The notes below the pieces were generated by a model. It had not been told where the DNA came from and ran no database searches. It worked only from the letters and a program-made list of their open reading frames with translations. The position numbers and the translations under genes were made by a program. A stretch of DNA of 64,000 nt, from the NCBI RefSeq assembly GCF_932294415.1, contig NC_065545.1, positions 22,615,357 through 22,679,356 of the forward strand, written 5' to 3'. Positions within the stretch are counted from its first letter, which is position 1, and the number at the start of each line of letters is the position of its first letter. The stretch comes from Quercus robur. Lineage: Eukaryota; Streptophyta; Magnoliopsida; Fagales; Fagaceae. This document shows positions 6,588 to 60,449 of the stretch, one piece after another.

Positions 6588-6589
6588 AT

Positions 6590-20083: not shown

Positions 20084-20131
20084 ATGTAATCAAACTTTTT
20101 TTTTTTTTTTTTGAGAGATGTAATCAAACTT
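20084..20131 (-). mobile_element. Micro-retroposition footprint (a)
   Basis: 14-bp direct repeat ATGTAATCAAACTT at 20084-20097 and 20118-20131. On the minus strand the 20-nt insert is CTCTC followed by 15 A. Confidence 0.8.
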
Positions 20132-20554
20132 TATTAATATGATATAATCAATATAATAAGACAAAATTCTCACCTGTTATAAGATAATATATTTAAATGT
20201 TTATTGAAATAAAAACCAATATATATTGGTCAAAATTTATGTTTAGGTCCTATATTTTAGGTTTTCAATTTAATATAACCTTGTCCTTATGATTATATTG
20301 ACCAATAAATTATATGGTTGAATTTAATTATTATTTAAAAATATAAATTTTTTATAATATTAATTAATTTAATTAATACAATTATGGCTTAAATTCATTA
20401 ACAAAAAAATGTGCTAAAGATTAAAGTATACTTGTATTTTGAATGAGTGATGTTATAAAATAAAATAATTAAAAAAAAGAAAAAGAAAAAGAAAGAAAAA
20501 CTAGTCCCAAAACACACATAGTATTTGGCTTTCTTTTTTGATTGACAATATATG

Positions 20555-20634
20555 ACCGCATCTAGGCCCAATACCATAGTCCCAAAGCTAGTCCCATTCA
20601 TTAACAATACCGCATCTAAGCCCAATACCATAGT
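20555..20634. repeat. 26-bp direct repeat
   Basis: 20555-20580 and 20609-20634 share ACCGCATCT(A)(G/A)GCCCAATACC with one mismatch, 54 bp apart. Confidence 0.8.
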
Positions 20635-20660
20635 TTAATAGGCTGATATTTCACTCAACT

Positions 20661-20711
20661 AAATTTTTTTAGTATCCTTCCTTCCTTTCAAAAAAAAAAA
20701 AAATTTAGTAT
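20661..20711 (+). mobile_element. Micro-retroposition footprint (d), imperfect
   Basis: AAATTT(T4)AGTAT at 20661-20675 and AAATTTAGTAT at 20701-20711 flank CCTTCCTTCCTTTC plus an A-run. The repeat copies differ in T-run length. Confidence 0.55.
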
Positions 20712-21443
20712 TAGCTAAAACCGGAAATCCTTTAAAAAAAAATATAAATAAATAAAAGAAAGAAGGAAAATAAAGGAAGCTAAAGACGAAAATAGCCCAG
20801 GTGAAAATACAGCCCAAATCAGAAATAATGGACCATCGTTGGCAACTTTTAGGTTGCCTGACTAGCCTGGTGCGGCCTACTCAAAGTACCCAACATGTTG
20901 AGTCATGTTAACCGGGTAACCCTTTTGCTCTAAATTTTGGTTTGCTCTCAAAGTGCATAGAACTAATGACATAACTGCCTAAAGATTGCCCAAGGGGATG
21001 CTTCTTAGGGATGAAAAAAGGTTTCTATGCCGCTTAATCCATGCTCCACTCTATCTCAAATAAGTAATGAGACGAGGACGAGTTTTGCTCACTCCATGGT
21101 TCACTCTAGCTATTTCACCCTTACCTTACCTAAAATGAGTATATATATGTTTTAATTTAATATATATTTAAATTATTTTATATATATAATTTAATATTTT
21201 TCTTAGGTAGATAATAACGAGGCTGCCTAAAATTGTCTTTTTAGGGATGATAAAATTTGTATATCTCATGTAATTCATCTTGCTCTGTCTCATATGATTT
21301 TTTTTCCTTGTCTTGAACAGGTGACAAGACAGGGATGAGTTTTGCTCACTCCACCCTATCTCACCCCACCATGATCCAAATGGTTATATGTATGTTGTTA
21401 ACATAATTCAATTTTTGATACAAAATCCAATAATATGTATGCA

Positions 21444-21495
21444 GGTATTCTATTACTAGGTTTACCAAAAAAAAAAAAAGGGTATTCTATTACTA
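21444..21495 (+). mobile_element. Micro-retroposition footprint (b)
   Basis: Perfect 15-bp repeat GGTATTCTATTACTA at 21444-21458 and 21481-21495. The 22-nt insert is GGTTTACC plus 13 A and G. TTACC before the A-run matches the 3' tip of LINE B (CTTACC then poly(A)). Confidence 0.88.
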
Positions 21496-21528
21496 TTTCT
21501 CAAAACACCTACATCATCTCCCTTTTAA

Positions 21529-21576
21529 CACTCTCATGCTTCCTCAAAAAAAAAAAAAAAAAAAACCACTCTCATG
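21529..21576 (+). mobile_element. Micro-retroposition footprint (c)
   Basis: 10-bp repeat CACTCTCATG at 21529-21538 and 21567-21576. The insert is CTTCCTC plus about 20 A and a C. Confidence 0.75.
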
Positions 21577-23479: not shown

Positions 23480-23527
<48 letters not shown>

Positions 23528-24262: not shown

Positions 24263-25590
24263 ATGGACCCTGACATTTTGGAATGAATCACAAGAATCTC
24301 TCTGACAGTGGAGGAGGAGGCATATATTGCAGTACAAACAAATAGTCGAGACAGAAGCCTTGAGGAGTGCTTTTTAAGCCTCATAGGGCGCTTCCTCATG
24401 GATAGGCCCTTCAACTAGAGGATCGCTAAGAACCTTCTTTGGTCAAGTTGGAAGATGGGAAATGACCTCAAGATTGTGGATGTTGGCGATGGCCTCTTCC
24501 AGTTCAGATTTAAACTTAAAAGCCAGTTGGAGTGGGTTTTGGAGAAGGGCTCATGGAGCTTTGATAACCACCTGTTGTTGGTTCAACGGTGGGAGAAGGG
24601 CTTGATAGCCCATAACATTACTTTCCCTATTGTCTTGTTGTAGGTACAAGTTTGGGGAGTGCCTTTTGAGTTGTTCAACGAAGATGCAACGCGAGATATT
24701 GGTAAACACATTGAGACTATGATCGAAGCGGATAGTAAGTCGTTTTCTTCCGAACAAGCACGCTTTCTCAGAATAAGAGTAGAGATACCGTTGAACCAAC
24801 CACTATGTAGAGGGGGACCAGTGGTGAACCCAGAGGGAGATCATTCATGGGTTATGTTCCAATATGAACGTATAGTTGGACTATGCTTCTTCTGTGGCAG
24901 ACTAGGCCATGAGAAGAAGGCATGCACACAATTAAACCCCAATGGGGAAGAGAACCCCTATGGAGAATGGATGAAGGTGGGGGGTAGACAGCACCCAATG
25001 GAACGAGACCGATATCTAGAAGCCCATTATGACCATCGGAAAAAGCTACCAAGACCACAAGAGTGGTGCCGCAACAAGCTAGGGCAACACCGTTGACCTC
25101 GCTAAGCAAGTCTATTCCAGGAAAAAACCCCATTAATGTGAAGGGCCCACAAAATACTGAAGTTGAGGAAACTAATGGTACTCCTTCCACTTTCATCACA
25201 CCCATCTCGATACCTGATATGGTAAGTACGATGCATGAAAACTTACCAACCTTGGAAGACATTATTCCCATCGAGGCAACTAAGGAGCGGGATGACAGAT
25301 GTACTTAGAGAGTGCATGATCCTGTGCATGTGCTGACTACACAAGTTCCACAAATACCATACATGTTGGCAACTTGGAAGAAAATCTCACATCCTTAGTA
25401 CACGGGGATGGAGGTGGGTGCACTATCTCCCATGCCAACGGTGGGCCAAAAAAGACACTTTGAAGGTGACAAAGAGGAAAATGGCTCTGAAGGAGATTTA
25501 GAAAACAATAGGGTTAAGTTTTTGGAGAAGACCAACCATAAGCATACTCTAATGGCAGAGGCTGGTGCCCAGCCACGCCGATCACAATGA
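24263..25590 (+). pseudogene. LINE A ORF1 remnant (DUF4283, CCHC)
   Basis: Reading from the ATG at 24263, one frame runs to 25096 with in-frame stops near 24284, 24416 and 24641. It contains the DUF4283 core (GDGLFQFRFK...WVLEKGSWSFDNHLL) and the knuckle CFFCGRLGHEKKAC. After a frameshift, a second frame (25063-25590, one internal stop near 25306 and another before 25408) carries the Lys/Glu-rich C-terminus and ends in QPRRSQ. Its TGA overlaps the ORF2 ATG (ATGA, 25587-25590). The RNA-binding chaperone role is family knowledge. Not functional. Confidence 0.85.
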
Positions 25591-28500
25591 TCATCATGAG
25601 CTGGAACTGCCAAGGGCTTGGAAACCGCCAGGTAGTTTAAGTACTTGTCGACCTGGTGAGATCAAAAGGACCCATAATTTTGTTTCTCATGGAAACTAAA
25701 CTGTCAATACAAGAAATGATTCCTATCAATGATGAGCTAGGATATCGTTCTATGTTGGTGGTACCAAGCGTGAGATGAAGTGGGGGGCTAGCCTACTATG
25801 GAAGGATGAAGTTACAGTAGCTACTTAGACTTATTCCCTTAATCACATTGACTTAAAAATTACGTGTTCTTTACAGGTGGAGTGGTGCTTGACAGAGGTA
25901 CACGGCCACCCGGAAGAGCAGAGGAAGAAGGAAACTTGGGCTCTGCTAAGGTCTGTAGCATACTATTGCATTGCGATCTAGTGGACTTGGGCTACCAGGG
26001 ATACAGGTATACATGGAGGAATGGGCGGTTTGAGAATGCGTTCGTGGAGGAATGCTTGGATAGAGCTCGTGCGAATCCGAAGTGAAGGGAGATGTTCCCT
26101 ACCGCCAAAGTTACACATCTAACGGTTTCGTACTCGGACCAGGACTTTATTATCCTGGCAACAGAAATGGCTCAGATGAGGCATAGGTGAAAGAAGAAGC
26201 TTCAACATTTTGAAGAAAAGTGGGTGATACATGCCAAGTGTGAAGAACAAATACGAACTTCATAAAATCGATCCCAATTGACTGGAAGCCCAATGTACTG
26301 CCTTTTCGAAAAGATTAAGAAATGCTACATGGACTTGGTAAAGTGGAGCAGGGTGTCTTTTGGTAACTCGCGAGATCATTTAAATGCCAAGCAGTAAGAA
26401 CTACAATAAATGGTAACGTCAAACTATGGAATTAACCAAGACATGATAAACTGGACAAAGAGGGAGGTGAACGAGCTCCTACACAAGGAGGAGGTCTTTT
26501 GAAGACAACGATCCTGAGCGATATAGCTCCCAGCTGGCAATAAGAATACCAAATTCTTTCACCAGCGTGTGAGTCAGCGAAGGTAGAAAAACCATATTGA
26601 ATGCCTGATTGATATGAGTGGAGTGTGGCACACTGAGGAAGACAAGGTGGCAGAGATAGCGGTGGATTACTATAAGGCTCTGTTCTTTGCATTGGCACCC
26701 ACACATATGACTGAAGTGTTGGACACAGTGGACATGGTAGTGACCAACAACATGAGACATGCGTTACTGCTCCTATACACTGAGAATGAGGTGCAGGTGG
26801 CACTGTTTCAGATGCACCCATCAAAGTCTCTCGGCCCCGACGGCATGTCACCATACTTCTTCCAAAAATTCTGGCACATCGTCGGTCCTAATGTCACTTC
26901 TATAGTCTTATCTATTTTACACTCTAGACAATAATTACAGAAGATAAACTTAGCACACATTGTACTCATACCAAAGAAAAACAAGCCTGAGCACATGAGT
27001 GAGTATCGACCTATCAGTTTGGCGAATGTGGTTTCGAGGATGGTGTCTAAAGTCATTGCAAATTGGCTGAAGATTATCCTACCTAAGGTCATATCAGATG
27101 CCCAAAGTGCCTTCGTACCTAATAGACTCATCACCGATAATACTACGGTGGTCTTTGAGATGCTACATCGAATGTGGAATCGACGAAGAGGGAAGATTGG
27201 GCACATGGCAGTGAAGTTAGATATAATCAAAGCTTATGATTGTGTGGAATGGAGTTTCCTTAGGCAGATTATGCTCAGAATAGGGCTCCCTGAACAGTGG
27301 GTGGACATGGCCATGGAGACGATTCAAATAGCCTTTTACTCGGTTCTTATCAACGGTGAGCCTAAGGGACATATCACTCCAACCTATGAGATTAAATAAA
27401 GTGACCCCCTCTCCCCTTATCTCTTCTTGTTAAGTGCTAAGGGATTATCTTTGAGCCTAAGGGACATATCACTCCAACCCATGGGATTAAATAAGGTGAC
27501 CCCCTCTCCCCTTATCTCTTCTTGTTAAGTGCTAAGGGATTATCTTCAATGTTGCGAAAAGCAACAGAAACTAGCCACTTGCATGGGATTACGTCGTGTA
27601 GGGGTGAAGTTCAGATCTCACATCTCCTTTTCGTCGATGATAGCTTACTTTTCTGTGAAGCCACTTCGGAGAAATGCCACTGCTTGCTCGATATACTGGC
27701 CAAATATGAAGGAGCTTCCAACTAAGCCATTAATTGGCAGAAGACATCCTTGTTCTTTAGCCAAAACACCAGGCAAGAAGTAAAGGAGGAAATCTAGAGT
27801 ATCTTGGGAGCTCAGATTATGATAGAATGCAAGAGGTATCTGGGACTGCCAATGGTGGGAGGAAAGTCCAAAGTAAGTACATTTAAAGAGTTACATGAAA
27901 GAGCAACAAAAAGGGTGATGGGATGGAAGGAAAAGCATATCTCCAAAGCGGGGAGGGAGGTGTTGATTAAAACTGTAGCCCAAGCCATTCCCATGTATTC
28001 GATGAGCCTTTTCAAAATCCCCAAGACAATTTGTGATGGCATCAACTCAGCTCTGTCTAAGTATTGGTGGGGATAAACCAAAAATGAGAAGAAAATCCAT
28101 TGGATTAACTGGGGCGATTGTGTAACTTGAAGAAAAAGGGTGGAATGGGGTTTAGAGATATCCATGCCTTTAATTTGGCAATGTTGGTGAATCAGGTGTG
28201 GAGGCTTATACACGAGACACATTCGTTGTTTTACCAGGTTTACAAGGCACGTCACTTCCCCTCATGCTTTTTCATGGAAGCTGAACTGGGAACAAACCCA
28301 TCCTTCGTATGGCGTAGCCTTCTACAAGCTCGAGAAATTATTAGGGAAGGGTTAGTATGGCAAATTGGTAACAGACAACATATCAGCATCAACACTCATA
28401 AGTGGCTTTTTAGGCCACCCGTGTTCAGGGAAGGGGCTGATCAAAGCTTAAAAGTGGCTGACCTCATCGATACCAATACGAAAGAATGGAATAGGATGTA

Positions 28501-29158
28501 GGTGCGTGCCATGTTTGCTTGGGGCACAAGCGAAGACATTCTATGGTTTAAACTAGGCAATTTAAGCTCGAGGGACAAGCTGGTCTGGAAGGAGAATAAG
28601 GCTAAGGTGTTCTCCATAAAAACGGCCTACCAGGTGGCGCTTCGGCTCCATCACCCACATGCAGGGGAACATTCTTTGGCAACTATGGACCAGAAGATAT
28701 GGAAGAGGATTTGGTCCATAAACGTTCCTCCTAAGGTTAGGACCTTTGTTTGGCGAGCCTGCTCTTATATCCTCTCGACTAAGGCTAACCTCTTTCATAA
28801 GAAGGTGCTAGTAGATCCATTTTGTTCGGCATGTGGTCAGGCTGACGAAACAATGGCCCACATCCTCTGGGAATGCCCATTAGCACGCAACGTTTGGGTG
28901 TTAGTATGACGAAGGATACAAAAAACAAACTCCTCAACAACAAGCTTCTTTCTTCTCACACGACAAATGATGGAGAGACTATCCAAGAAGGAGTTTGAGA
29001 TGTGGACCATGGTGGCATGGTCACTTTGGAACGCACGTAATAGGATGCACTTTAGAAAGTCACAACCCCATCGCAAAGAGATTCTTAAACAGGCAATAGA
29101 TTTAATGGAGGAGTATCAGAAATTGATTAAGGACCTTGTACACCAGCAGTGGACCTGA
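25587..29158 (+). pseudogene. LINE A ORF2 remnant (endonuclease, RT, zf-RVT)
   Basis: Starts MIIMSWNCQGLGNRQ, the usual start of an L1 endonuclease, with METKL soon after. RT blocks are recognisable: GPDGMSPYFFQKFW (about 26838), the palm motif KLDIIKAYDCVEWSF (about 27215), GDPLSPYLFL (about 27497) and FVDDSLLF (about 27631, catalytic Asp pair kept). The zf-RVT type segment (IWKRIW...WECPLARNVW) lies at 28695-28905. Many stops and frameshifts and a 95-bp tandem duplication break the frame. No RNase H is recognisable. Confidence 0.88.
27358..27547 (+). repeat. 95-bp tandem duplication inside LINE A RT
   Basis: 27358-27452 and 27453-27547 are near-identical consecutive copies (GAGCCTAAGGGACATATC...GGGATTATCTT) covering the region around the RT GDPLSPYLF motif. 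Each copy carries an in-frame stop. Confidence 0.92.
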
Positions 29159-29360
29159 GACTCTCATTTCCAGGACCCCTTTTTTATACTTCTTATACTT
29201 TTTTTTTTCTTCTTTGTTTACCTAGGTCCTCATAGAAGCTGTAGGCCATTATTCATGTTAGTGCATGGTTGTTTGTGTAATATAGCTTTCTCAACCTAGG
29301 TTTTTGTGCTTTGTACGTTTTCCACTTTTCATACTTTGATATACTTCTATCTTTGGATGT

Positions 29361-29397
<37 letters not shown>

Positions 29398-29399
<2 letters not shown>

Positions 29400-30555: not shown

Positions 30556-30610
30556 CGTACCACAACTTTTTTTTTTTTTTTTTTTTTTGTTTGAGAAGGG
30601 CGTACCACAA
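30556..30610 (-). mobile_element. Micro-retroposition footprint (e)
   Basis: 10-bp repeat CGTACCACAA at 30556-30565 and 30601-30610. The minus-strand insert is CCCTTCTCAAAC followed by a long A-run. About 185 bp upstream of the CGEP start codon. Confidence 0.75.
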
Positions 30611-33700: not shown

Positions 33701-36700
33701 TGACACTTATATAATTCCCTAAATTCCTGGACCTCATAATATTCTCCAAATCCAACATATTACTAGATGTCAGAGATCGTTGCCTTTCATGTCCATGGTC
33801 AAAGCTGCTCTCAGGCATGTTAAACACAGAATGTGTCATCTTAAAGCCATCTGTAGCTTTGTTTGCAAATATGCAGGAGAATTTAACCTAAAATCTTGTT
33901 TTAATGTATTTGACCTTTTCTATCACCACAGAGGTATTTCTTGGTGTGATGATTCACTGGCTCTAGTTTATGAATCTTGGTACAAAACGCGGCGAACAAG
34001 AACCTGGGTGATTTCTCCTGGATCTAAAGATTCTAGTCCACGCATCCTATTTGATAGGTCATCAGAAGATGTGTACTCTGATCCTGGCTCTCCAATGTTT
34101 CGGAGAACTCCTGCTGGAACTTATGTGATTGCAAAGATAAAGAAGGGACATGATGATGAAAGCTATTATATTATACTGAATGGAAGCGGTGCAACACCAG
34201 AAGGGAACATTCCATTCCTTGATTTGTTTGACATGTAAGTGTTTCAAATCATCTTTTTTGGGTGTGTTCCTTCCCAAATGCTCATTGCTGCCATATGGTC
34301 CTAAACCAACTTCTTTCAGAAATACAGGCAGCAAAGAAAGAATATGGCAAAGCGACAAAGAAAAGTATTATGAGAGTGTTGTTGCTTTAATGTCTGATCA
34401 GGAAAAAGGGGATTTGTGTCTGGATCAGTTGAAAATACTGACCTCCAAAGAGTCAAAAACTGAGAACACCCAATACTATATCCTGAGCTGGCCAGATAAG
34501 CAAGCATGTCAAATTACGAATTTCCCTCATCCATACCCACAGCTGGAAACATTGCAGAAAGAGATGATCAGGTATCAGAGAAAAGATGGGGTTCAAATGA
34601 CTGCAACACTATACCTGCCACCAGGCTATGATCCGTCAAAAGATGGACCTCTTCCATGTCTGGTTTGGTCTTATCCTGGTGAATTTAAAAGCAAAGATGC
34701 TGCTGGACAAGTTCGTGGTTCTCCTAATGAATTTCCTGGAATAGGTGCTACATCAGCCCTTCTTTGGCTGGCTAGAAGGCATGAATTACCTCTTCCCATT
34801 GTTTTGTTTATACTCTCTTTTAAAATCTTTGGCATGTCATCATTATTCCCCTACATATTGCATCTATCTTCTGGTTTGCTGTGAACATAATGGACCAATT
34901 TTCAATTGCTTTGATACTTGCAGGTTTGCTATTCTAAGTGGACCAACGATTCCTATTATTGGTGAGGGTGATGAGGAGGCAAATGACAGGTAGCTTGAAA
35001 CAATTTTTTTAAAGAATGTACTGATAGTTTCAAGGATATGGGAATTTTTATTTATAAAAAAATAAAAATAAAAAGGGATATGGGACTTTCATCCTAGTCA
35101 TATGATAAAGTAAAATGCCTATAAGCACATTTTAGATATTTTCATATGATTGATGACATGAGGAAGTTCATCCCATTCTTAACCAAAAAAGAGAGTGTGT
35201 GAAGTGCATATCCCAACAAGGATGGCAAGTTTGTGAAAAGGAAGTTGTGAAATGGGTGTGAAAAGACTTTACCACAACGGGGAAATGACATTTGAGATGT
35301 CCAGAAAATGTGTGGAAACAGAAAAATAGAAATGAAATTTCTTTCATGATTGCAGTTTGATAAACCAACCCCCCCCCCCCGGCCACCCAAAAAAAAAAAA
35401 ACTAAAAATTACTAGCAATGTATATATCCTCAATTAATCTATGCTTCTGCAAAGAACCCAGATTATACTAGGAAATGTAACATGGGGCCTTCCCTTCCCT
35501 ACTCCTTTCTTCACTTCACAGTGAAGTTTCAACTTCTTCAGCTTTCATATGAGGCTTGACTTGTCAAAAAGAAAAAAAGCTCTCATATGAGGCTTGGTTT
35601 ATTTGATTTTATTCCTCAGCTATTTGAAAGTTTCACAAAAGAAACTATGCAACATAGAGTTTCAGGATCTATATCTGAAATGCCTTGACCAGGTATGTAG
35701 AGCAGTTGGTTGCGAGTGCAGAGGCTGCAGTTGAGGAAGTTATCCGACGTGGAGTAAGCTGCTTTGTTCTTTTCCATCTAAATTTTGTTTGCATATCTCT
35801 TGAGTGTGAACTTTTGGCTCAACAGTAGTCTGATGTTGCCCTTGTTAAGGTGGCCCATCCAAACAAAATTGCTGTTGGGGGACATTCCTATGGAGCATTC
35901 ATGACAGCAAACCTCCTAGCACATGCTCCTCATCTTTTCTGTTGTGGAGTTGCTCGCTCTGGTGCTTACAACAGAACACTTACTCCTTTTGGTTTTCAGG
36001 TAAGACAATAATGGAATAATTTTGTACTTAACCAACCAGTTGCTTACATTAGTTTAACTTTCTCCCTCATTTTTTTCTTTACCTCTCTTCCCAATAGTCA
36101 TTGTCCCTAGTGTCATATCTTACCTCTTGATGGTTAATGACCTTTTTGTTATACTGGTGTAGAATGAAGACAGAACTCTTTGGGAGGCAACAAGTACTTA
36201 TGTAGAGATGAGTCCTTTCATGTCAGCTAATAAAATTAAGAAGCCAATATTGCTTATCCATGGAGAAGAAGACAATAATCCTGGAACTTTAACAATGCAG
36301 GTAAAGGAGGAATTTTTTTTCCTGTTTAATTTGTTATGTCTCCCATTTAGTTCAACCTTTTTCCTGTGTTCCCATTAACTAATGACTTGTCAAAACATCT
36401 TCCTATAGATTTAAACTTACCCCTCTCATTAGTTTCACTTTTGAAAATTAGTTTTTCCATGGGCTGAGCTTGAAGCTATGTAGTGTTTAGTGGCTAGCTC
36501 CTTTTCTTCTTTACCTAGTTGTTCACTTGCCACTTATTTGTGTTTGCATGCCCTGCAGTCAGATCGTTTTTTCAATGCCTTAAAAGGTCATGGTGCTCTT
36601 TGTCGCCTTGTGATTCTTCCATATGAGAGCCATGGATATGCTGCACGTGAGAGTATCATGCATGTACTCTGGGAAACTGATAGATGGCTTCAGAAGTATT

Positions 36701-43200: not shown

Positions 43201-44339
43201 ATCTCATCTTTAACCGAGGCAATGTGATTCCTTTTCCTTCTAGCAAGGGCAGAAACATGATAAAAGGAGGTATTGTGGTCCCCTTGAATCATCCAATTAA
43301 TTCTGGACTTAAGCATCCAGAGGTCCCTTTCTTGATCTAGAACCACCTCAAGCTCCTGATGCAACTTATCCTCAAGATTAATGAGAGAGGAGCTCGGCCA
43401 ATTGGAGATAGCTTTTTGGACACCATAGATTCTCGCCATAATTCTTCTCTTCTTTTGGTGGATATTCCCAAAATGATTCCTATTCCAACAGGTAGCTTCT
43501 TTAGAGAAAACCTCAATAGACTCAGCTAAATTCCGGTTACCACCCTAAGCACTAGAAACAACATTGGGGAAAGACATATCTGAGAGCCAGAACTCTTGGA
43601 ATCTGAATGGACAGTTGAGCCGAACGGATCTAACCGGAATGGTCTCCATAAGAACCGGACAATGGTCAGAGTGACACCGGGGGAGATGGGTAACTTTTGC
43701 CTCAGGGTAAAGGACACACCAATCCAGATTCATGAAGAACCGGTCAATCCTTTCCAAGATGAGATTACTAACATCCCGCTTGTTTGGCCAAGTGTACCTT
43801 GGGCTAGAGAAGCCCATATCCACCATACTACAGATATCTAAGCAATCTTTGAAGGCCAGAGACCGATTAACACTGACCCCTCTGCCCCCAAATTTATCCT
43901 CTTGAACAAGAGGTTCATTAAAATCCCTGGCCATAATCCAAGGCTTATTATGTAAATCAGCAACTTTAGCTAGATTATTCCATAAAATGCACCTCTCTTC
44001 ACTCCTAGGACTAGCATAAATAGCAGAAAAAACCCAGGAAAGATTAGAGGCACGTACCTTAACTTCGACATGAATTTCCTGTTTTGTTTTAGCAAGCTCA
44101 ACAACCTCCACTTTGTCATCATTCCACAGCAGCCACAACCCACCCGATAATCCAATCGTCTCCGTATGAATTGCCCCATCAAACGGTAACCTGTCTGAGA
44201 CTACCTTTGCTCTGCTACCACCCAACTTGGTCTCCATAACTACAAGGATAACCAGGTCATGCCGCCTAGATAATTCATGGATGTAGTTTTGAAAGGAGGG
44301 TTTTAACGCTCCTCTACTATTCCAAATCAGCAAATTCAT
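40209..44339 (-). pseudogene. LINE B ORF2 (endonuclease, RT, zf-RVT, RNase H), four stops
   Basis: Starts MNLLIWNSRGALKPSF at 44339. Endonuclease motifs METKL, DFNEP and SDHCPVL are followed by RT palm motifs IDLEKAYDKIKWSF and FFVDDLVLF, the GDPLSPYLFILCME block, a zf-RVT region, then RNase H (LKLNTNESW...FSAEIWAL). All parts share one frame, interrupted only by stops at about 43545, 42183, 40554 and 40422. The first RNase H catalytic Asp position is Asn here (NTNES instead of the usual NTDGS). Confidence 0.92.
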
Positions 44340-44370
44340 GACTAAACTAATAACACAAGGAGCTAGCACC

Positions 44371-46345
44371 TCAATCCGACAGAGGGGCTCCATCCCTTCC
44401 CTCCGATACCATACCATCATACCCCAACTCTTCATAGATTGTCCCTTCTTTAGAACAAGGACTCGATAACTCCTCATCCAAGATATCCCCATTACCCACA
44501 CAAGTAGCTTGGCCAAGAGCTTCAGAATTGAGATTTAAATTAGTAGACTCACCTAATATCTCAACACCATTAACTGTGCTAGCCTCAGAATCCGGAGGAG
44601 CGACTCGTTGATCCCCTGAAGACCGTGTCTCACTCCGACTGCCTTGGTGATCTACATCAACATCGGACAAAGGAGGTTCACACCCATCCTTTTGTTGATC
44701 CCTTCCAACACTATGTTGAACCCTTCCAACACTAGCTGCTGCTGTGAATTTAAAAGACTGATCAAGAGGACCAGCCGTTCCATGGTAGAGAGCAGAGGTA
44801 TGAAGTAGAGGCAGAGGAGTGGGTTTTGCAGAAAAATGTTTCCTTACAGAGACACAGTCAGTGTTAGGAGAAAACTGACTTAATCCCCTTGCAATGACTT
44901 TTTGACCCTTTACAGAAGTTGGATATTTTCGGTGGATTTGGGCTTGAGAAGATGACATGGATAAAGGCCCACTATCTTCACCATGATTAATACCCTCTTT
45001 TTCCAGCGGCATGCAATCCACTGGACCCAAACCAGATTTTTCCTTCATGCTCGTGGAGCCCAAACCAGTGAAACTTGGAGTCCAGCTCGGTTCAGCCCTC
45101 TTGTGATGGTCCCCACTACTAGGTACGTAAACACTACGGGACATTCTAGGTGTGATCTGCTCTACCAGTTGACGTGTTCCTCCATTCTGGGAAATTAGGA
45201 GGAGGTTGTGGCGCAGCATTCCGAGCAGATTTTGTAGTACCCTCCGTACTACCAACCAAATTTGTTCCCTTGCGACCGTTAGTCCTTCTGCTCACTACCA
45301 TCCACGGTCCGTACTGACCGTTGTCCTTCGTGGCCTCACCCATTTCAGCCATGCCAGTACTGGACTGCGCCCCATGTCCGGCATGATTCTCTTGAGACGT
45401 TGCACCTCTGTTAGGCAGTGCATCCTCAACCGGCGCCTCTTGCTCCTTACCCTTTCGTATGGTGTATGGGCAAGCCACCACTGTATGCCCAAGCCTTCCA
45501 CAGGAGAAGCAAAGGGTTTGGATGCCCTCGTAGCTCACCGGTTGCTCAAAACGCCCAATAAGGATGGTATTCACTAGCGGTTGGTTGATGTCAATCTGAA
45601 TGCAAAGTCTGGCGTATCTGCCACGAGCCTCCATGGCTGTATGGGAGTCAATCCTTAAGACCTTACCAATGGTTTCTCCTAGCTCCTTTAACACCTCCGC
45701 TTCATAAAGTTCAATGGGAAGTTCATAAAGACGAATCCAAACCGCAATCAGAGATACATTAGCCGTAGAAGGCTTAAAAAAAGGTTCCCAAGGCCTTATG
45801 GAAAGAAACTGGTCACCAATAAACCACGGACCCTTCACCAAAACATTATCAAGGTCCTCCTTTGAATAGAATCTTACCAGGAAAAACTCAATCCCAAGAT
45901 CCACACAGTCCATCCTACTCGTCGGCCTCCACATTTGGTTCAATTTGGTCCTCATGTAAAGCAGGCTGTTCGTTCTACCAACAAGCTTGACAATAATGGA
46001 TTTTGACCACGGACCTCTAATGCGGCTTTTAGTATCTTTGGACAGCTTGTACTTGACCCAGCCGTCCGGAATCGAATCATTTTCCTCCCCACCTTCACCG
46101 TCAGACCCTTCATCTTCCTCCATAAGACTATCAAATTCAAAAGCTTTCGCATAAGCCCCTGGCATTTCACCCACGAGTTTCTCCTTGAATGAGGCTCTGT
46201 CAACAGGTTCGGAGCTTTGAACAAACGGAGGTGGAGACCTCTCCCGTGGACCTTCATTAAACTCAGCATGATGTATATCTTTAATCTTCTTGTTACTCCG
46301 GGCCAACTCTGCCTCTTCCTCCCTAGAGAGCGTACGTGGTTTCAT
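44371..46345 (-). pseudogene. LINE B ORF1 (DUF4283, CCHC), one frameshift
   Basis: The first frame runs 46345 to 45146 (399 aa) with an acidic N-terminus, a DUF4283 nucleic-acid-binding region (residues about 120-230) and the knuckle CFSCGRLGHTVVAC (about 280-295). A frameshift between 45255 and 45146 moves the Ser/Pro-rich C-terminal part into a second frame that ends at 44371. ORF1 proteins of plant L1 elements package the LINE RNA; that role is family knowledge. The ORF2 ATG is 31 nt further on. Confidence 0.85.
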
Positions 46346-46387
46346 AGAGAGCGTTTTCCTTATTGTAAAAATATTGCCCCCATATTT

Positions 46388-46908
46388 CTTTTACATCTGT
46401 TTGCAAGCCTCTTCCACAGTCTTCTCCAAAGTGGATTCTTTTTTAAGAAAACAAAGAAAAAAAGAGTATTATTAACAAAACATGAATCCAAGTACACTGG
46501 AAGTATATACAATAGAAACACAAATAAATCCTCTCCAGCGTAGATATTGGTATTAGGATAACAAAAGCAATGAAGTTGCAACCGTCAAATATAAAAGATT
46601 TATAGTTATGATATTATCACAGACCTAGCTTATTAGAGCGTTTACCTTTCAGTTATAGTATTCATAAAAATTGGTTAAGAATCACCCTGTTACGGTGTGC
46701 TTCCTAGCATACAATTTCCAATCCCTTTTCAGATTTAAAACGTGTCATTAAAACTACTGGAAGAAAACATTGTGAAGACAAACCTCAATGTCCAAGCAGG
46801 AATTATCTGAATTCACTACTTTCATTATGCTTTGGAGGCATTAAAAAAAGGAGGGGGGCGGGGGGGGGGGGGGGGGGGTGTGGGAACTATAGACGAGCAA
46901 CAAATTAC
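46388..46908. other. Remainder of SUVH4-type intron 14
   Basis: Intronic, no feature except a G-run at about 46852-46878 (G/C only on plus). Confidence 0.6.
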
Positions 46909-47720: not shown

Positions 47721-47770
47721 CTGTTCACAGAAAAATGATTTAATCATCTGTTGCATAAGTGATATACTCA

Positions 47771-47819
47771 GAAAACATTACTATTTAACCCAAAAAAGAA
47801 AGAGAAAACATTACTATTT
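47771..47819 (+). mobile_element. Micro-retroposition footprint (i), intron 12
   Basis: Perfect 16-bp repeat GAAAACATTACTATTT at 47771-47786 and 47804-47819. The 17-nt insert is AACCCAAAAAAGAAAGA. Confidence 0.88.
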
Positions 47820-49387: not shown

Positions 49388-49424
<37 letters not shown>

Positions 49425-50770: not shown

Positions 50771-51541
50771 AAAGAGTTTAACAAAATCTACAGAAATATT
50801 CAATAAATACATATCTATAAATGTATAAAATCAACTACAGAAATAAGAAAACTAGGATGCATAATAAAAATACTTAATCAGCTATAAGACAGGCCACAAG
50901 CTCTCAATAATTTGCAAATGAATTTTTTTTTTCTTTCTATTTTTGGATAAGACAAGTTATCAAGTGTCCGTCTGAAACTGAAAACTTTTGACTGAAAGTA
51001 CTGTAGATAAAGTGTAAAACTAATTGAAATAGTATAGTAGGACCTATGAATAGTATCAAAAAGTGCAATGGAACTTATAAATAGTAACAAAAATAAACTG
51101 AATAGTAGTAAAAATAAACTAAATAGTAAAAAAAGCTGGCTTTTCAGCCAATGCCGAACGCACCCCAAGTAAGTTTCCTCCCAACTACTTTTTTTTACTT
51201 ATATTTTTTTAATAAGTAAAGAAATCATTATTTGTATAAAGAGAAAATTCAAATGAACAGGAAGAGTTTAACAAAATCTACAGAAATACTCAATAAATAC
51301 ATTTCTATAAATGTATAAAATCAACTAAAGAAATAAGAAAACTAGGATGCATAATAAAAATACTTACGATCAGCTACAAGACAGGCCACAAGCTCTCAAT
51401 AGTTAGCAAATGAAAAAAAAAATTTCTTTCAATTTTCGGATAAGACAAGTTATCAAGTAAGTTTCCTCCCAACAACCTTTTTTTATTCATATTTTTTAAT
51501 AATTAAGTAAAGAAATCATTATTAGTATAAAGAGAAAATTC
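50771..51541. repeat. 285-bp tandem duplication in intron 8, each copy later hit by a TE
   Basis: Copy 1 starts at 50771 (AAAGAGTTTAACAAAATC) and ends at 51260. Copy 2 starts at 51261, runs to 51541, is interrupted by LINE C and resumes at 55741. Copy 1 contains a 200-bp MITE-like insert (50966-51165) that copy 2 lacks. Copy 2 contains LINE C, which copy 1 lacks. Each copy therefore preserves the other's empty site. Confidence 0.9.
50966..51165. mobile_element. 200-bp MITE-like insertion with CAAGT target duplication
   Basis: CAAGT at 50961-50965 and 51166-51170 flanks the insert. The uninserted site (TATCAAGTAAGTTTCC) is present in the tandem copy near 51450. The interior has reiterated AAATAGTA/GAATAGTA motifs like those of 4638-4937. 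Confidence 0.85.
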
Positions 51542-54500
51542 CTCCCAACAACCTTTATTTATTTATAATGGAATTGTAGAGGTGCTTTGAATGTTGATTT
51601 CATAAGAAGAATTTTTGAAATGGCAATTAATCATCGCCCTTCAATTATGGTTGTTATGGAGACGAGGGTTGAAGGAGATAGAGCAAGAAGAATTATTGAA
51701 GGATTGCCTTTTGATGGGTACATCACTACAGATACCGTTGGCTACACTGGGGGTTTGTGGATCCTTTGGAAGACAGAGGATGTTGAAGTGTCTCATCTCT
51801 CAAGCACAGAACAAGAAATTCATGCCTCTATTAAAGGTGCACTCTTCTAACCTAACCTGGCTTATTTCTGCAATTTATGCTAGTCCTAGGTTAGCTGAAA
51901 GAAGAATTTTATGGAATAATCTAAAAACTATAGCTCAACTCCATAATTTACCTTGGCTGATGCTGGGGGACTTTAATGAAGTTTTGTGCAGAGAAGATAA
52001 GTTTGGGGGAAATCAAGTGAATCTGAATAGAACTCTTGAATATAAAGAGTGTTTGGATGAATGTAATATGCTAGATTTGGGTTTTGCGGGTCCTAAATAC
52101 ACATGGAAGAATCGTAGGCCCATCACAAGTCTTATTTTGGAAAGAATTGATAGGTGTTTTGCTAACTCGGGGTGGAGACTCCTTTACTTATAAGCTATAG
52201 TTACCCATTTGCCTAGAACATTTTCGGACCACTGTCCAGTACTTTTGGAATTATGTAAATCTAATACCAATAATTTTAATAAATTGTTTCGTTTCCAAAC
52301 GATGTGGCTTCTTCACCCGGATTTTTATAGAGTAGTGTAGCAAGCCTGGGTTGAGAATAGAGCACTATAAAGAGCAGTGGCAAATTTTGTTGATAGAGTT
52401 AAAAAATGGAATGTGGAAGTATTCGGCAACATTTTTGCAAAGAAGAGAAGGGTGTTAGCTAGACTGAATGGTGCACAGAAAGCCATTGCAGAGAACCCTA
52501 ATAATTTTCTATTAAATTTGGAAAATCAGCTTTTGTCAGAATATTCCCTTATTTTAATGCAAGAGGAAGAATTTTAGGCCCTTAAGTCTAGACTAAATGC
52601 AGCCTCTTTTGGGGACCGAAACACGTCCTTTTTCCATGTCTCCACTGTGGTGAGGCGACATAGAAACAAAATAAGGTGTATCAAGGATGCAGTTGGGAAT
52701 TGGTTAACTGAGGATAATGAGGTAAAGGAGCATATAAGGAGTGGTTTTATAAATTTGTACACCACGGAGCTGAGGTAGTTTACTAAATCCTCGAATGTCT
52801 CTAATTTCTCTTGCTGCTACTTCTCAGATGAGGTTAGAGCTAGGATTCATTGTGATGTTACAGTGGAGGAAATTAGAGCAAGTCTTTGGGCTCTCAAACT
52901 GTTCAAAGCTCCAGGTCCCGATGGTCTACATGCGGGATTCTACCAACATTTTTGGATGGAGGTTAAAAATTCTATTTGCGAGGAGATTAAAGAAATTTTT
53001 ATGCATGGTGTTGTGTCGAGTTATCTAAATGAGACATTGATAGCCTTGATTCCGAAATGCCAAAATCCAGAATCACTGAGCAACTATAGGCCCATCAACT
53101 TGTGTAACTTAATTTATAAAGTTATTTCGAAGATCATTGTGGCCCGAATCAGCAGCTTGATATCTCCTGTGCAGACTGCTTTTGTACCTGGCCGAAGAGG
53201 AACTGATAATGTTATCATTGCCCAAGAACTCTTTCATACCTTGGACAAAAAGAAGAAGGGAAGAGTCGGTTACATGGCTATCAAGTTGGACTTAGAAAAA
53301 GCATATGATAGGCTTGAATGGAGTTTTGTGCATAAAGTTTTAGAAGCCTTTCGTTTCCCTCCAAAACTCACTACGATCATAATGAGCTGTATTGCGACTA
53401 CTAGCATTTCCGTTTTGGTTAATGGGGGTGCTTTACAATCATTTGAGCCTTCAAGGGGTATTAGACAGGGAGACCCCTTATCCCCGTATATTTTTATATT
53501 ATGCATGAAATATTTGGTTCACCTTATTGAGCAAAAGTGTGTTGATGGAGGTTGGACCCCTTTGAAGGCTTCCAAGAATAATGTAGGAATCTCCCACCTT
53601 CTTTTTGCGGACGATATCTTATTGTTTGGAAAGGTTGATCCCGCTGCTTGTGAAGCAATATTGGAAGTGCTTGGGAAATTTTGTGCTGAATCAGGCCAAA
53701 AAATCAGTTTGGAAAAGTCTCGTGTTTATTTTTCCCCAAATGTTATTGAAAGTTTAAAGGAGGAAGTCTGTGGTAAATTGGGCATTAGGGTAATGCATGA
53801 TATTGGAAAGTACCTTGGATTCCCGTTTAGACATAGAGGGGTTGCTCGTAATCCATATAAGTTCATAGTGGAAAAGGTCATGAGCAAGCTTGTAGGGTGG
53901 AAGGCAAAGTATTTATCCTTTGCTGGATGAACGGTTTTAATTAAATCTGTGATGTCTACCATTCCCAACTATGTGATGCAAGGGGTGGCTCTACCAGTCC
54001 ATGTTTGTGATAAATTGGATAAAATTAACCGGGACTTTTTATGGGGTTCCACAAGTGAGAAAAGGAGGATGCACATGGTTGGGTGGAGCAAAGTTATAAA
54101 GTCCAAGGAAGATGGGGGTTTAGGAATACAAGCGGCTAGGGCGAAAAATATTGCGCTGCTCTCTAAACTAAATTGGAGAATGTACCATGAACAAGATGCT
54201 TTATGGACCAAGGTGTTGCTTAAAAAGTATTGTTCCATTTCAAGAGCAAGGTCGAGGGATCCGGTAAAACTCCCTTCTTCTCCTAATTGGAAAGCCATAA
54301 ACCTGGGGTTTCCTATCTTCAAGAAAGGTATCTGGTGGGGTATTGGAAATGGTCATGGAGTGAGAGTTTGGTTGGATAGCTGGATTAATGGTGAGTCTCT
54401 TCGTGGCATGATAGAGGGACCCTTAAAGCAAGAGGATGCTGAGTTGACTGTGGCTGTCTTGTGTCGTGATTATGATTGGAGATGGGAAATCCTATCCTTT

Positions 54501-55730
54501 GATCTACCAGATTCAATTAAGAATAAAGTTAAAGCTATCCCACTCCAACTCTTTGGAAGTAGGGAAGACTCTATCATGTGGAAATATTCCAAAGATGGTG
54601 AATTCTCCACTAATTCAGCCTACCAATTAGCCAACCAACCTGATTCAGCAGAAAATCCTTTTACAGAGCAGTGGATTTGGAAATTGGATATGCTACCAAA
54701 GATAATAAGTTTTCTCTGGCTTTGTGTACATGGTAGCATACCTGTGAAGAGTGTTCTGGTAGCTAGGGGTATTAATTGTGATAAGGTGTGTCCTATATGC
54801 AAGCGGCATGAGGAAACTATTGTACATTTGCTGCGAGATTGTGAGGTTGCGCATGATTTGGGGTGTAAGTTGGGAGTTCCTTATTCTCATATAAAGTCCT
54901 TTAATGAAAATTTCGCTAATTGGCTTAGAATTAATAGTTTGAGTACTGTTAGACACAACACACATATTCCTTGGTGCATGGTGTTTTTATATGCGGTTTA
55001 GTGTTTGTGGAAAAATAGGAATATTGTGATGTTTGAAAATGGTATACCAAATCCTAAGCTAGATAAAGTCTACCTTGGTCAAGCTAGGGAATTTCACTTT
55101 TGTGTGAGTAAGATCAACCAAGTAACCTCCAAAATACCCTTCCCTGTCAGTTGGAATAAACCATCATTTGGCTGGCACAAATTAAACACTGATGGTGCTT
55201 CCATTGGAAATCCGGGTAAGGTGGGAGGTGAAGGAGTAATTAGGGACTGCCATGGTGATTGGGTCAAGGGGTACTCAAGATCAATTGGGTATACCACTAG
55301 TGTGCTAGCTGAATGGTGGGCATTATGGGATGGGCTGATCTTGGCCATTCAATTGGGCATAAACCAGCTAAGGTGATTGTGGAGTTGCTCAATGGTGCTG
55401 AATGTCCTAACCGGAGTTACTCTCCTTTGTTAAATGATTGCAGGTCCCTCATAGCAAGACTTGTGCAGGTCCGGGTGAGGCATTGTTTTAGAGAGGCGAA
55501 TCAATATGCCGACTTTTTGGCTAAAAGGGGCTGTGTTATGTTGGAAAATTTTGCTGTGTTTGATATTCCCCCCTTTGCTGATATGTATATTTTGTTGGAC
55601 TCTGATAAAAATGGGTTGTACTGTTATAGGCATGTTGCTAGTACTCTTGCCTCAATGGCCAGTTTGTAATGTTTATTGCTGGTTGCTAATATAATATCTA
55701 TCCTATTAACCAAAAAAAAAAAAAAAAAAA
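51542..55730 (+). mobile_element. LINE C, 5'-truncated L1-type element in SUVH4-type intron 8, antisense to the gene
   Basis: Target duplication GAGAAAATTC (51532-51541 and 55731-55740), confirmed by the intact site in the upstream tandem copy (about 51231-51250). It lacks ORF1: coding starts at the endonuclease (about 51568). Poly(A) at 55712-55730 is preceded by TTAACC. The first about 25 nt after the left duplication (CCTCCCAACAACCTTT...) copy a nearby upstream segment (51470-51488), a 5'-junction filler. Confidence 0.95.
51568..55669 (+). pseudogene. LINE C ORF2 (endonuclease, RT, zf-RVT, RNase H)
   Basis: Begins WNCRGALNVDFIRR and has METRVEG, GDFNEVLCREDKFGG and SDHCPVL endonuclease motifs. 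RT shows AIKLDLEKAYDRLEWSF, GIRQGDPLSPYIFILCM and LLFADDILLF with both catalytic Asp kept. A zf-RVT region (CPICKRHEETIVHLLRDC) and RNase H (KLNTDGASIGNPG) follow. Frameshifts lie near 51838 and 55370. Stops lie at about 52192, 52340, 52370, 52575, 52778, 53928 and 55000. Not functional. Confidence 0.92.
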
Positions 55731-57101: not shown

Positions 57102-57229
57102 CTTGTACAAGCCATCATATGTGTAAATTTTTCTTGGATGCCCACCAACAACACATTTATGTCCACGGATCACTCTAACAGGTAAACCTTTTTTTTTTGA
57201 GAAACAGGTAAACCTTGATCTATGTTATT
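57102..57229 (-). pseudogene. SUVH4-type exon 7 with 26-nt micro-insertion
   Basis: Encodes GLPVRVIRGHKC...IYTYDGLYK, carrying the YDG signature. A 14-bp repeat (57177-57190, 57203-57216) surrounds TCTC plus A-run on the minus strand. The 26 extra nt shift the frame to an early stop. Without it the exon is exactly 34 codons. Confidence 0.9.
57177..57216 (-). mobile_element. Micro-retroposition footprint (j), inside SUVH4-type exon 7
   Basis: 14-bp perfect repeat AACAGGTAAACCTT at 57177-57190 and 57203-57216. Minus-strand insert TCTC plus 8 A, 12 nt. Confidence 0.88.
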
Positions 57230-57267
57230 CTGTAAAAGATAATAATCACATACCATAAGATTGATTT

Positions 57268-57311
57268 GGTAAAATATTATTTATTTATTTTTGGCTTAAA
57301 GGTAAAATATT
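57268..57311 (-). mobile_element. Micro-retroposition footprint (l), intron 6
   Basis: 11-bp repeat GGTAAAATATT at 57268-57278 and 57301-57311. On minus the 22-nt insert is TTTAAGCC followed by A-rich AAAATAAATAAAT. Confidence 0.78.
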
Positions 57312-57734: not shown

Positions 57735-58064
57735 CATATGAATTTGCCAGAATGATTTCAAATTCAACTCATCTTGGCCAATTCATTGGTTTCGAAATAG
57801 GCAGTCAAGTAAAATACTATACATTAGGTAAAATGCGATTTCTACTAAACTATGATGGTTTAACATGTTAACACCTATTAGGCATATATTGGAATTGCGC
57901 ATATGAATTTGCTAGAATGATTTCAAATTCAAATCATCTTGGCCAATTCATTGGTTTCCAAATATGAAGTTAAGTAAAATATCATATAGAAGGAAAAGTT
58001 TGAATTCGTCTAAACTACGGTGGTTTAAAACGTCAACACCTATTAGACATTTATCGAAATGACA
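57735..58064. repeat. 165-bp tandem duplication, intron 6
   Basis: 57735-57899 and 57900-58064 are two diverged consecutive copies beginning CATATGAATTTGC(C/T)AGAATG and ending after CACCTATTAG(G/A)CAT. Confidence 0.85.
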
Positions 58065-58163
58065 GATCATTATTAGATGCTAAAATCCAAATGGGTACCC
58101 TTGTACAATGGGAAAGGGCTTACTAGTGACCATTAATATAAGCACTTATACGGTTAGACCATG

Positions 58164-58214
58164 TTCTCTCTCTCTCTCTCTCTCTCTCCCCCACCCCCCC
58201 CCCCCCCCCCCCCC
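58164..58214. repeat. (TC)n microsatellite followed by C-run
   Basis: Simple sequence in intron 6; about 25 nt of TC then about 26 nt almost all C. Confidence 0.9.
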
Positions 58215-59291
58215 AAACAAAAAAAAGGAGAAGAAAATTTAGGAAATGATGGGGGAACATAATTGAAAGCTTCCTTTGAAGACTTATAAGAGGCGAGGAA
58301 AGGTTGGTTCAAGTTCTCAAACGATAATTTGGGATGTTTCGCATAATGGAAAGCTCTCTTGGAACATTTCTTAGCTATTCCATCTATTAGAAAGTTTCTA
58401 TTCTACTTGTAAATAAGTTTCCCAAGTTTTATTGTGTCAAGGGTAATCTGATAGTTTTTCAGATTTTGTATAATGTGTTGGACTAAGGACCATATATATG
58501 TCTTCTTGGTTTAAAAGTTCTTAATTACTTTATTTGTTATTGGGAATCCTTTAGGGGTACTAGTCTTTCTAGAAAAGGTTTTGGGAATCCTTGTACTAGC
58601 CATTGTTTTGAAATCAAATTAGCTTTTAAATTATCTAACCTTACCAAAACCCTTAAGCATTAACACCTATTAAATAACCCTTCAAAATCTCATAAAAAAT
58701 CCTTTTAGAGCCGAATTTCTAAAGATCCTTCATCAGAATATCTCTATCTTATTCAATTGTTTTGTTAGGAACTTCTTAAAATTTATTATTATTTTTTTAT
58801 AGAAAATCCTACTTAGAAGGAAAGATAAGAAAAAGGCATTCCAATTTTATTCTTTTCCCAAAAAACATAAAAACCTATAAGCACAAATAGATATTGGTTA
58901 TTGAGAAAATCCTACTATTTTGAGCTCAATTATTGGTTATTTATTTCATTTTACTATCCCGGGTTTTGTTAGAAAAATAATATTATTTTATATATAATTA
59001 TTAAAAATGGTGTTCTGGGAAAATTATTTTGGAGAATAGTCTTTTGTGTTTTAAAAACATAATTTTAAGTATTGAAATTTCAAATTTTACACTGAATTCA
59101 TGTTTCCAAAACACAAATTCAGTGTAAATGTGTTTACCACAACACTATTTTTAACAATTAATAATACAATAAAAATAATTTTCCCAAAAAAACCTTAATT
59201 AAAAATTCTACCAACTTAAAGCGCAAAAACCCAGGTAATCAAATAAAAATAATATGAATAAATTAATATTGCTGAGTAAGTCATTCCGAAC

Positions 59292-59515
59292 CTTGAGAGC
59301 CAAATTACCACGACACATAACTTGATCTTTAACTTGACATTTATTGCCGAGTAAGTCATTCCCACCTTCACCTGTATACTCAATTTCTTCTGACTTGTCA
59401 ACATCATCTTCATATTGGACAGACAAGACAATTGAAACAGCAACTGGCAACATAATCTCTTTTTTTTTTTTTGCTGAATAACTGGCAACATAATCTTCTG
59501 ACTCCTGAACTCTTC
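59292..59515 (-). pseudogene. SUVH4-type exon 6 with 38-nt micro-insertion
   Basis: Encodes LPVAVSIVLSVQYEDD...GNLALK of the SRA domain. A 17-bp direct repeat (59442-59458, 59480-59496) surrounds ATTCAGC plus 13 A and G on the minus strand, adding 38 nt and shifting the frame. Without it the exon is exactly 62 codons. A fortuitous AAAGAG acceptor could skip the insert in frame, but it has no pyrimidine tract. A 20-bp piece of the exon is repeated just inside intron 6 (59268-59287 against 59343-59362). Confidence 0.9.
59442..59496 (-). mobile_element. Micro-retroposition footprint (k), inside SUVH4-type exon 6
   Basis: 17-bp perfect repeat AACTGGCAACATAATCT at 59442-59458 and 59480-59496. Minus-strand insert ATTCAGC plus 13 A and G, 21 nt. 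Confidence 0.9.
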
Positions 59516-59958
59516 CTGCAATAATCCAAAGAGATAATTAAAGAAAGATTAAAACTATAAACTCACAATGTATTCCATCTAAGTTTACATAGAAACAACC
59601 AATTAAACAATCGTGAAAGCCACTCAGCATCATGGCGTTGTAATATGTATTATTGGTTGCTTATCCTTTGTTAAATACCAACATTCAATTTTTAACAAAA
59701 TAGTTTGCGGATATCCTTTACCATAAAGATAATCCTAGGCCTTTTCATCCATCATTGTGATCTTGGCAGGACATTTCAATTTCCTTAGCATCCCATGCAC
59801 CTAAATCTTCACCATTTTTTTCAATTGTATTAAGTTTAACATATTCTTAGAAACTTTATCATTGACCATACGCTTGGATGCCATTAAATTACTGTTGTAT
59901 ACACACTTTACTAATCAAATTCCGCAGAATTCCTGATTACTTTTAGATACCCTACCAC

Positions 59959-60060
59959 TTTTGAAGATTCTCCAGTATAATCAATTCCCCTCAAACACTG
60001 CCCATGAAGACCAACAGCCACCATTGCAGCCCGGGAAGAGAATTGATGTCCAACATTAAT
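59959..60060 (-). pseudogene. SUVH4-type exon 5 lacking a splice acceptor
   Basis: Encodes INVGHQFSSRAAMVAVG...GIDYTGESSK, the SRA segment corresponding to IDVGHRFFSRAEM in KYP. Exon 4 ends with one base of a Gly codon (LPG), so two bases plus an AG are needed here. The whole minus-strand stretch upstream back to about 60125 contains no AG. Confidence 0.8.
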
Positions 60061-60399
60061 AAAGGTAATAACAAAAATTAGATTAAAAGTTTGGAGATGC
60101 CATAAAACAATTAATGTAATTTATAAAAGAATAGATAGCAAATATCTACACCCCCAACAGACAACTGAATTTCACGAACCTGGTAGATGACCTATTTTCT
60201 TGCTGTACAAATTTTTTTTTGAATTCAGCATCTGCCATAATTCACAAAGCAACAGTAAGGAAATGAAGTAACAAAGTAGACCAGAGTTACTCTACACTAT
60301 AGTAAATCAAAGTAACCAGAAATGTTCACATATGGGAAAAAAATAAAAGTTACAAGCCTGCTTAAATATCATTTTCAATACAATAATTTACTACTTTGA

Positions 60400-60449
60400 A
60401 ACATTAACCTAGTATTTTTTGGTAAAATCATTAACATTAACCTAGTATT
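60400..60449 (-). mobile_element. Micro-retroposition footprint (m), intron 3
   Basis: 17-bp perfect repeat AACATTAACCTAGTATT at 60400-60416 and 60433-60449. Minus-strand insert AATGATTTTACCAAAA; TTACC before A matches the LINE B 3' tip. Confidence 0.85.

Follow-up and report, generated by a model that had tools for sequence, protein, structure and literature searches.

Why does a 64,000-nt stretch of Quercus robur nuclear DNA contain short direct repeats that enclose little more than a run of adenines? The window, by which we mean this whole stretch (C41:22615357-22679356 in its own 786-Mb assembly), is AT-rich and encodes a CP12 protein (86% match to Fagus sylvatica, 97% match to one cluster). 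An initial annotation had listed at least 13 places in it at which a target duplication surrounds a few bases and a poly(A) run, and had ascribed them to long interspersed nuclear element (LINE) machinery of the L1 type that stops after copying the tail. Our analysis indicates that such sites very probably arose by target-primed reverse transcription by LINE enzymes, which copied the poly(A) tail and usually the last 4-12 nt of the template.

We defined the strict scan as an exact direct repeat of at least 10 nt with an A-run of at least 6 nt abutting the second copy, and used as mirror control the same scan on the reversed sequence, where the A-run falls on the wrong side. The window yields seven matches against none in the mirror geometry, and the comparison with shuffled sequence, which had been proposed as a check, gives means of only 0.12 (maximum 1; 100 dinucleotide shuffles) and 0.18 (maximum 2; 100 run-preserving shuffles). 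All seven matches are among the 13 listed sites, with target-site duplications (TSDs) of 10-17 nt; the tips, i.e., the bases preceding the A-run, measure 4-12 nt across the micro-inserts of the window. On the plus strand lie 21444..21495 (15-nt TSD GGTATTCTATTACTA, tip GGTTTACC + A13, extra G at the 3' junction) and 21529..21576 (10-nt TSD CACTCTCATG, tip CTTCCTC + A20, extra C). On the minus strand lie 20084..20132 (15-nt TSD AAAGTTTGATTACAT, tip CTCTC + A17), 30556..30610 (10-nt TSD TTGTGGTACG, tip CCCTTCTC of the CTTCTC class, AAAC + A22, extra G), 57177..57216 (14-nt TSD AAGGTTTACCTGTT, tip TCTC + A10), 59442..59496 (17-nt TSD AGATTATGTTGCCAGTT, tip ATTCAGC + A13, extra G) and 60400..60449 (17-nt TSD AATACTAGGTTAATGTT, tip AATGATTTTACC + A6). 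As the initial annotation had noticed, a C directly precedes the A-run, here at all seven strict sites; across the window, a TSD accompanies 7 of the 58 A-runs preceded by C and 0 of the 137 preceded by T or G (Fisher P=1.6e-4).

The position of the A-run against the second repeat copy, also claimed there, is equally consistent with target priming when all near-tandem repeats of the window are listed (repeats of at least 10 nt, spacer 4-60 nt). Ten of the 50 carry an A- or T-run at the junction, and in every one of these ten the run occupies the target-priming side (in three also the other side, in none the wrong side only); one of the ten, 51463, was set aside as it sits among nested duplications. 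A relaxed scan, which required 8 As and hence missed 60400, returned 13 matches against 2 in reversed sequence and a mean of 0.33 (maximum 2) in 60 shuffles. These correspond to 12 places, since 35034 scored on both strands; ten belong to the 13 listed sites, 20661 was missed as well, and two doubtful new places, 49030 and 51093, were set aside.

Four further listed sites fit on weaker evidence and are probable micro-inserts: 35540..35596 (plus strand; 19-nt TSD with one mismatch, tip ACTTGTC + A5GA7, an interrupted run), 47770..47819 (listed as 47771, plus strand; exact 17-nt TSD AGAAAACATTACTATTT, tip AACCC + an interrupted A-run), 57268..57311 (minus strand; 11-nt TSD AATATTTTACC, tip TTTAAGCC + an A-rich tract) and 20668..20711 (listed as 20661, plus strand; a weak TSD of only 8 nt, TTTAGTAT, tip CCTTCCTTCCTTTC + A14). 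The count of at least 13 footprints is thus borne out for seven strict and four weaker sites. It does not hold for 35034, whose insert is A/T-symmetric and scores on both strands, nor for 39227, where two 18-nt near-tandem copies are separated by 9 nt and no A-run reaches 6.

The tip of the CTTCTC class is dominant genome-wide. CTTCTC-A14 occurs 2,165 times in the 786-Mb genome against 171 times for the reversed pattern, and changing the last base abolishes the excess (CTTCTG-A14, 38 against 67 reversed). We scored TSDs at 60 CTTCTC-A14 places, namely the first ones listed for contig C1 and not a random genome-wide draw, by local alignment of the 3' flank with the sequence just upstream, using a threshold of 9 and 600 mispaired flanks as control. 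This score is reached at 37 of the 60 loci and in 15 of the 600 controls; 33 of the 37 have a tip of at most 16 nt, so that 33 of the 60 look like micro-inserts. Because L054 and L055 derive from a single event, 36 events remain. Their tips measure 6-9 nt in 27 (two of which were set to 6, the alignment having ended inside the hexamer), 10-16 nt in 5 and more than 16 nt in 4, which corresponds to densities of 6.75, 0.71 and 0.09 events per nt, respectively. Counts before the A-run fall from 2,165 for CTTCTC to 523 for CCTTCTC and 12 for GTCTTCCTTCTC, the twelve-base end of one donor subfamily, and part of this fall reflects differences between subfamilies. As a negative control, CTTCTG loci gave a TSD at score 9 in 1 of 10 (mispaired, 3 of 90). 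By eye, three of them (L104, L105 and L109, with TSD scores of 7, 8 and 9) resemble CTTCTC micro-inserts that have acquired one substitution and whose duplications have decayed.

Between the A-run and the second repeat copy, 1-4 extra bases are often present (e.g., G, C, GAGC, CCAA, GGCG), as at 21444, 21529, 30556 and 59442 in the window and at C1 loci such as L036, L038 and L057; they are possibly non-templated additions made at priming. We also saw a family of short repeats that contain GTGAACAGTGCAC-like motifs (L033, L034, L035, L071 and L072; 4689-4760 and 3874-3925 in the window). In several members a CTTCTC-A tract occupies much the same internal position, and an old micro-insert may have been multiplied together with the repeat. 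One member, L035, is included in the 33 of 60 with a 9-nt TSD that may be spurious.

Where does this tip come from? A motif search placed the C-terminus of a LINE RNase H just before CTTCTC-A in 6 of the 27 loci that are not verified micro-inserts (L032, L037, L050, L074, L076 and L082). The sequence upstream of the tract in L032 matches RVT_3 (E=2.1e-15), and the short peptides of L032, L037 and L082 give RVT_3 matches only below the cut-off. In L032, the 26 nt that separate the stop codon from the tail include AATAAA, and in several LINE subfamilies the distance from the RNase H frame to CTTCTC-A is approximately 26-30 nt. The donor, read at its 3' end only (the RNase H portion), has a frame that ends shortly before ...AATAAAAGTCTTCCTTCTC-An, and examples of donor subfamilies ending CTTCTC-An read ...TTCCTTCTC or ...TTTCTTCTC. 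A 127-nt piece near the LINE end of L032 matched 40 places, which are all of the 40 that were scored out of 96 candidates. L032 and ten fetched copies end CCTTCTC before the A-run in 6 of 11 cases (one with an extra C) and CATTCTC in 2 of 11; the remaining three end CCTTCACAAC, CTTTCACCC and CTTTCA, the last two with near-identical flanks by eye. CTTCTC is preceded by T or C in 5 of the 6 loci with a LINE frame (by eye) and in 21 of the 25 micro-insert tips of at least 7 nt. The CTC+A and TCTC+A tips, for which the initial annotation had suspected another family, are accounted for, because LINE subfamilies other than those in the window end CTTCTC-An.

The resemblance that it saw between tips and the 3' ends of LINEs within the window fares less well as a guide to the donor. 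None of the three, LINEs A, B and C (described below), is the main donor. LINE A was rejected as a frequent donor, as GATGTC-A14 shows no excess (36 against 66 reversed). Tips resembling the ends of LINEs B and C are in excess, with 889 against 286 reversed for TTTACC-A14 (3.1x) and 799 against 301 for TTAACC-A14 (2.7x), but a short-range duplication accompanies only 2 of 10 TTTACC loci. The derivation of insert sequence from a LINE 3' end holds for the CTTCTC class only.

The target sites also look LINE-nicked (Y/AA-like). With L055 left out, 28 of 32 micro-inserts have a T or C immediately ahead of the duplicated target. The targets start with a mean of 1.66 As, compared with 0.53 at random positions handled identically (P=0.0008). 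In the local paralogs L056 and L057, independent micro-inserts lie about 13 bp from each other; each paralog is uninterrupted at the other's insertion point, and A-runs at these empty sites do not exceed 3. When the joined flanks of 50 sites were searched against the fetched sequence, the L056/L057 junction alone (1 of 50) was flagged as spanned.

The same geometry recurs in 25 random stretches of 10 kb each from five contigs of the genome (250 kb). Limited to complex repeats and at most 15 nt before the A-run, nine matches have the expected geometry and three the mirror one; one of the nine, L029, is symmetric, lacks a tip and is counted in the mirror too, and the other tips measure 6-14 nt within this 15-nt limit. 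Tips ending CTTCTC (L007, L012 and L025) or ATTCTC (L028) recur. With C before only 5 of the 9 runs (T 2, G 2), the C rule holds less well than in the window. Without the length restriction, the first 20 stretches give 13 matches against 5 in the mirror (30 shuffles, mean 1.0, maximum 4) and the other five stretches 3 against 2, with 27-42 nt before the A-run in several. With 7 sites in 64 kb compared with 9 (net 6) in 250 kb, the window is richer than average, and naive extrapolation suggests that such sites would number in the order of ten thousand genome-wide. The size spectrum in the window and the first 20 stretches (TSD of at least 12 nt, A-run of at least 8) comprises 6 matches at 4-12 nt and 7 at 41-1950 nt; since the reversed control gave 3 (70, 141 and 431 nt), the longer ones are left uninterpreted.

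Several observations weigh against target priming from LINE tails. The excess over the mirror in the random sample is modest (9 against 3 for short tips, 16 against 7 unrestricted), with C before only the five runs mentioned above. Tips of 4-12 nt are not uniquely assignable, and ATTCAGC, CTTCCTC, CGGTTCTT and CACAGTG match no identified donor. The target preference is weak in the window alone (P=0.027 for 7 sites, P=0.017 for 11 sites), and a two-pyrimidine test was not significant (P=0.08). The empty-site evidence consists of one paralogous pair that is similar over a short stretch only. Of the 60 CTTCTC loci, 27 are not verified micro-inserts (6 lie in a LINE frame, some in other repeats, and the rest are unexplained). 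At least one counted duplication, that of L050 with a tip of 35 nt, is probably due to chance, because this locus lies inside a LINE frame.

Can the sites be explained without a LINE enzyme? A-runs are mutable and the window is AT-rich, and A-tracts might have expanded in place between repeats made by chance or slippage. We consider this extremely improbable, as run-preserving shuffles give 0.18 matches compared with the seven observed, window TSDs are confined to C-preceded runs, and at the insertion points of the L056/L057 empty sites no A-run exceeds 3. Patch-mediated repair, in which staggered breaks are filled to short tandem duplications and filler is captured between the copies, fits the 40 of the 50 near-tandem repeats in the window that lack junction A-runs, and tandem duplications are described as the commonest insertion source in rice in PMC7971508. 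However, filler is expected in either orientation, whereas all ten run-bearing repeats have the run on the target-priming side, and filler predicts neither one hexamer tip (2,165 against 171) nor a LINE 3' end, which makes this reading very unlikely for the micro-inserts. Given the orientation and the tip sequence, we therefore reject both tandem slippage and patch repair. A closer rival keeps the enzyme and replaces LINE RNA as template with the 3' ends of short interspersed nuclear elements (SINEs) or ordinary mRNAs. Some tips match no known LINE end, and the use of poly(A) RNAs in trans has been proposed for plant L1-clade LINEs (PMC3747384). Against it, CTTCTC-A follows the LINE RNase H frame at the spacing given above in several subfamilies, and random mRNA ends would not yield one dominant tip, so that we regard it as unlikely. 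No SINE family ending CTTCTC-An was recognized by eye among the 60 loci, no dedicated SINE search having been made, and the 4-16 nt before the A-run in verified micro-inserts leave no room for a SINE body bearing a pol III promoter.

Target-primed reverse transcription from LINE tails remains the best explanation. The geometry, the tip, the donor match, the target preference, the size class and the empty sites of one pair, all read from the DNA itself, point to LINE machinery that is presumably of the L1 type and stops after the tail; here the orientation, the C-A junction, the target sites, the paralogous pair and the donor support what the initial annotation had proposed. In the mechanism that we envisage, the LINE enzyme would nick a Y/AA-like target site, prime on the poly(A) tail of LINE RNA and copy this tail together with about seven further nucleotides, after which joining of the product would leave an ordinary 10-20 nt duplication. 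Among identified templates, RNA of the LINE subfamilies ending CTTCTC-An would be the most frequent, and the usual product would consist of target duplication, (0-3 nt) CTTCTC, A14-50 and target duplication.

What might end copying approximately 7 nt past the tail? Similar sizes among tips of other sequence suggest a fixed distance from the tail and not a sequence signal. Folding of the L032 donor end predicts no pairing within the 35 nt that precede the tail, and the end as a whole folds no better than shuffles (z=-0.84), making a hairpin stop signal unlikely on the prediction for this one donor end. The favored stop would be a distance-fixed boundary, set either by enzyme drop-off on leaving the A-tract or by RNA trimmed to an enzyme-covered stub. 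If the template is trimmed, i.e., degraded to a stub protected by the reverse transcriptase, the product would be a full copy of the stub and not an aborted copy. The sharp 6-9 nt tip size, its likeness in tips of other sequence and the lack of predicted pairing that could stop the enzyme in L032 agree with trimming, but fixed-distance drop-off would look identical, and we consider trimming a tenable account that falls somewhat short of probable. Tail-stub retroposition may, as a tentative proposal, constitute a distinct, size-quantized LINE mode in which stubs are inserted more often than longer copies. Such a mode could conceivably operate through a particle trimmed to approximately 7 nt plus poly(A), or through a fixed release point approximately 7 nt past the tail, a suggestion we hold with less than even confidence.

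Tail-only insertion is already known, as a rarity in human disease. A review table of 124 disease insertions (PMC4859970, Table 1) lists four 'pA' rows, three without a TSD and with deletions of 2-13.4 kb and the fourth with a 6-nt TSD, plus a SERPINC1 insertion of 6 nt of Alu and A40 with a 1.4-kb deletion. These cases share with ours an A-run with zero or few template bases at an L1-endonuclease-type site, whereas ours have 10-20 nt duplications, a dominant donor end, a narrow tip size and, by extrapolation, copies in the order of ten thousand. The pipeline of a human insertion study (PMC12016303) keeps poly(A)-tailed inserts, and its accessible sections say nothing further on tail-only products. 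With 5'-truncated copies of L1-clade LINEs, the micro-inserts share the presumed enzyme class, poly(A), TSD and target preference; unlike them, their truncation is almost total and their tips cluster at 6-9 nt rather than being spread. For plant L1-clade LINEs, a poly(A)-based, relaxed template recognition has been proposed, and tailless retropseudogenes are likewise unusual short products attributed to L1 that lack poly(A), in contrast with the mostly poly(A) inserts here (both from PMC3747384). Rice tandem duplications ascribed to patch repair (Vaughn & Bennetzen 2014 as cited in PMC7971508) also show short direct repeats from small insertions, but the insert here is a directional LINE tail. 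We found no report of an abundant tail-only insertion class in plants in the literature searched, which was covered in part and by some narrow queries. Nor did these searches show such an abundant class of narrow size with one dominant donor end in a plant.

If this explanation is true, such genomes have more LINE activity than is recognized, because their inserts of approximately 20-50 nt, mostly A, resemble microsatellites and would probably escape ordinary repeat annotation. The micro-inserts would then be directional marks of endonuclease activity and would supply trees with new A-tract microsatellites and small insertion alleles, and their narrow tip size raises the question of what sets the stop of LINE reverse transcription, or which template arrives. 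Should the tail-stub mode hold, thousands of duplication-flanked, microsatellite-like A-tracts would represent a hidden class of plant insertion mutation.

The three LINEs of the window, probably of the L1 clade, were assigned by the Pfam domains RVT_1, Exo_endo_phos, zf-RVT, RVT_3 and DUF4283. LINE A (24644..29397, plus strand, start approximate) has DUF4283/zf-CCHC_4, RVT_1 and zf-RVT and a 3' end TGTC + A36, and no TSD was located for it in the window. LINE B (40171..46390, minus strand) has DUF4283, RVT_1 and zf-RVT, with Exo_endo_phos just under the cut-off; it ends CTTACC + A15 and has an 11-nt TSD whose copies lie 6.2 kb apart. LINE C (51255..55730, plus strand, start approximate) has Exo_endo_phos, RVT_1 and RVT_3, ends TTAACC + A19 and has a 15-nt TSD with copies 4.46 kb apart. 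A search for LINE relatives in viral contigs found none, and prokaryote genome contigs gave one distant locus, which was not used. A 95-bp tandem duplication (27357-27546, 97% identical) overlaps the reverse transcriptase frame of LINE A, and a cluster of 85-202 bp repeats (50767-51541, approximately 91% identical) lies just upstream of the start of LINE C and overlaps it. Elsewhere in the window, 5191-16060 is a probable Copia-type long terminal repeat element, typed by eye from its open reading frames. It contains direct copies at 5191-6589 and 14628-16060 (88% identical) and a 76% inverted relative of both at 12871-14162, apparently a nested insertion.

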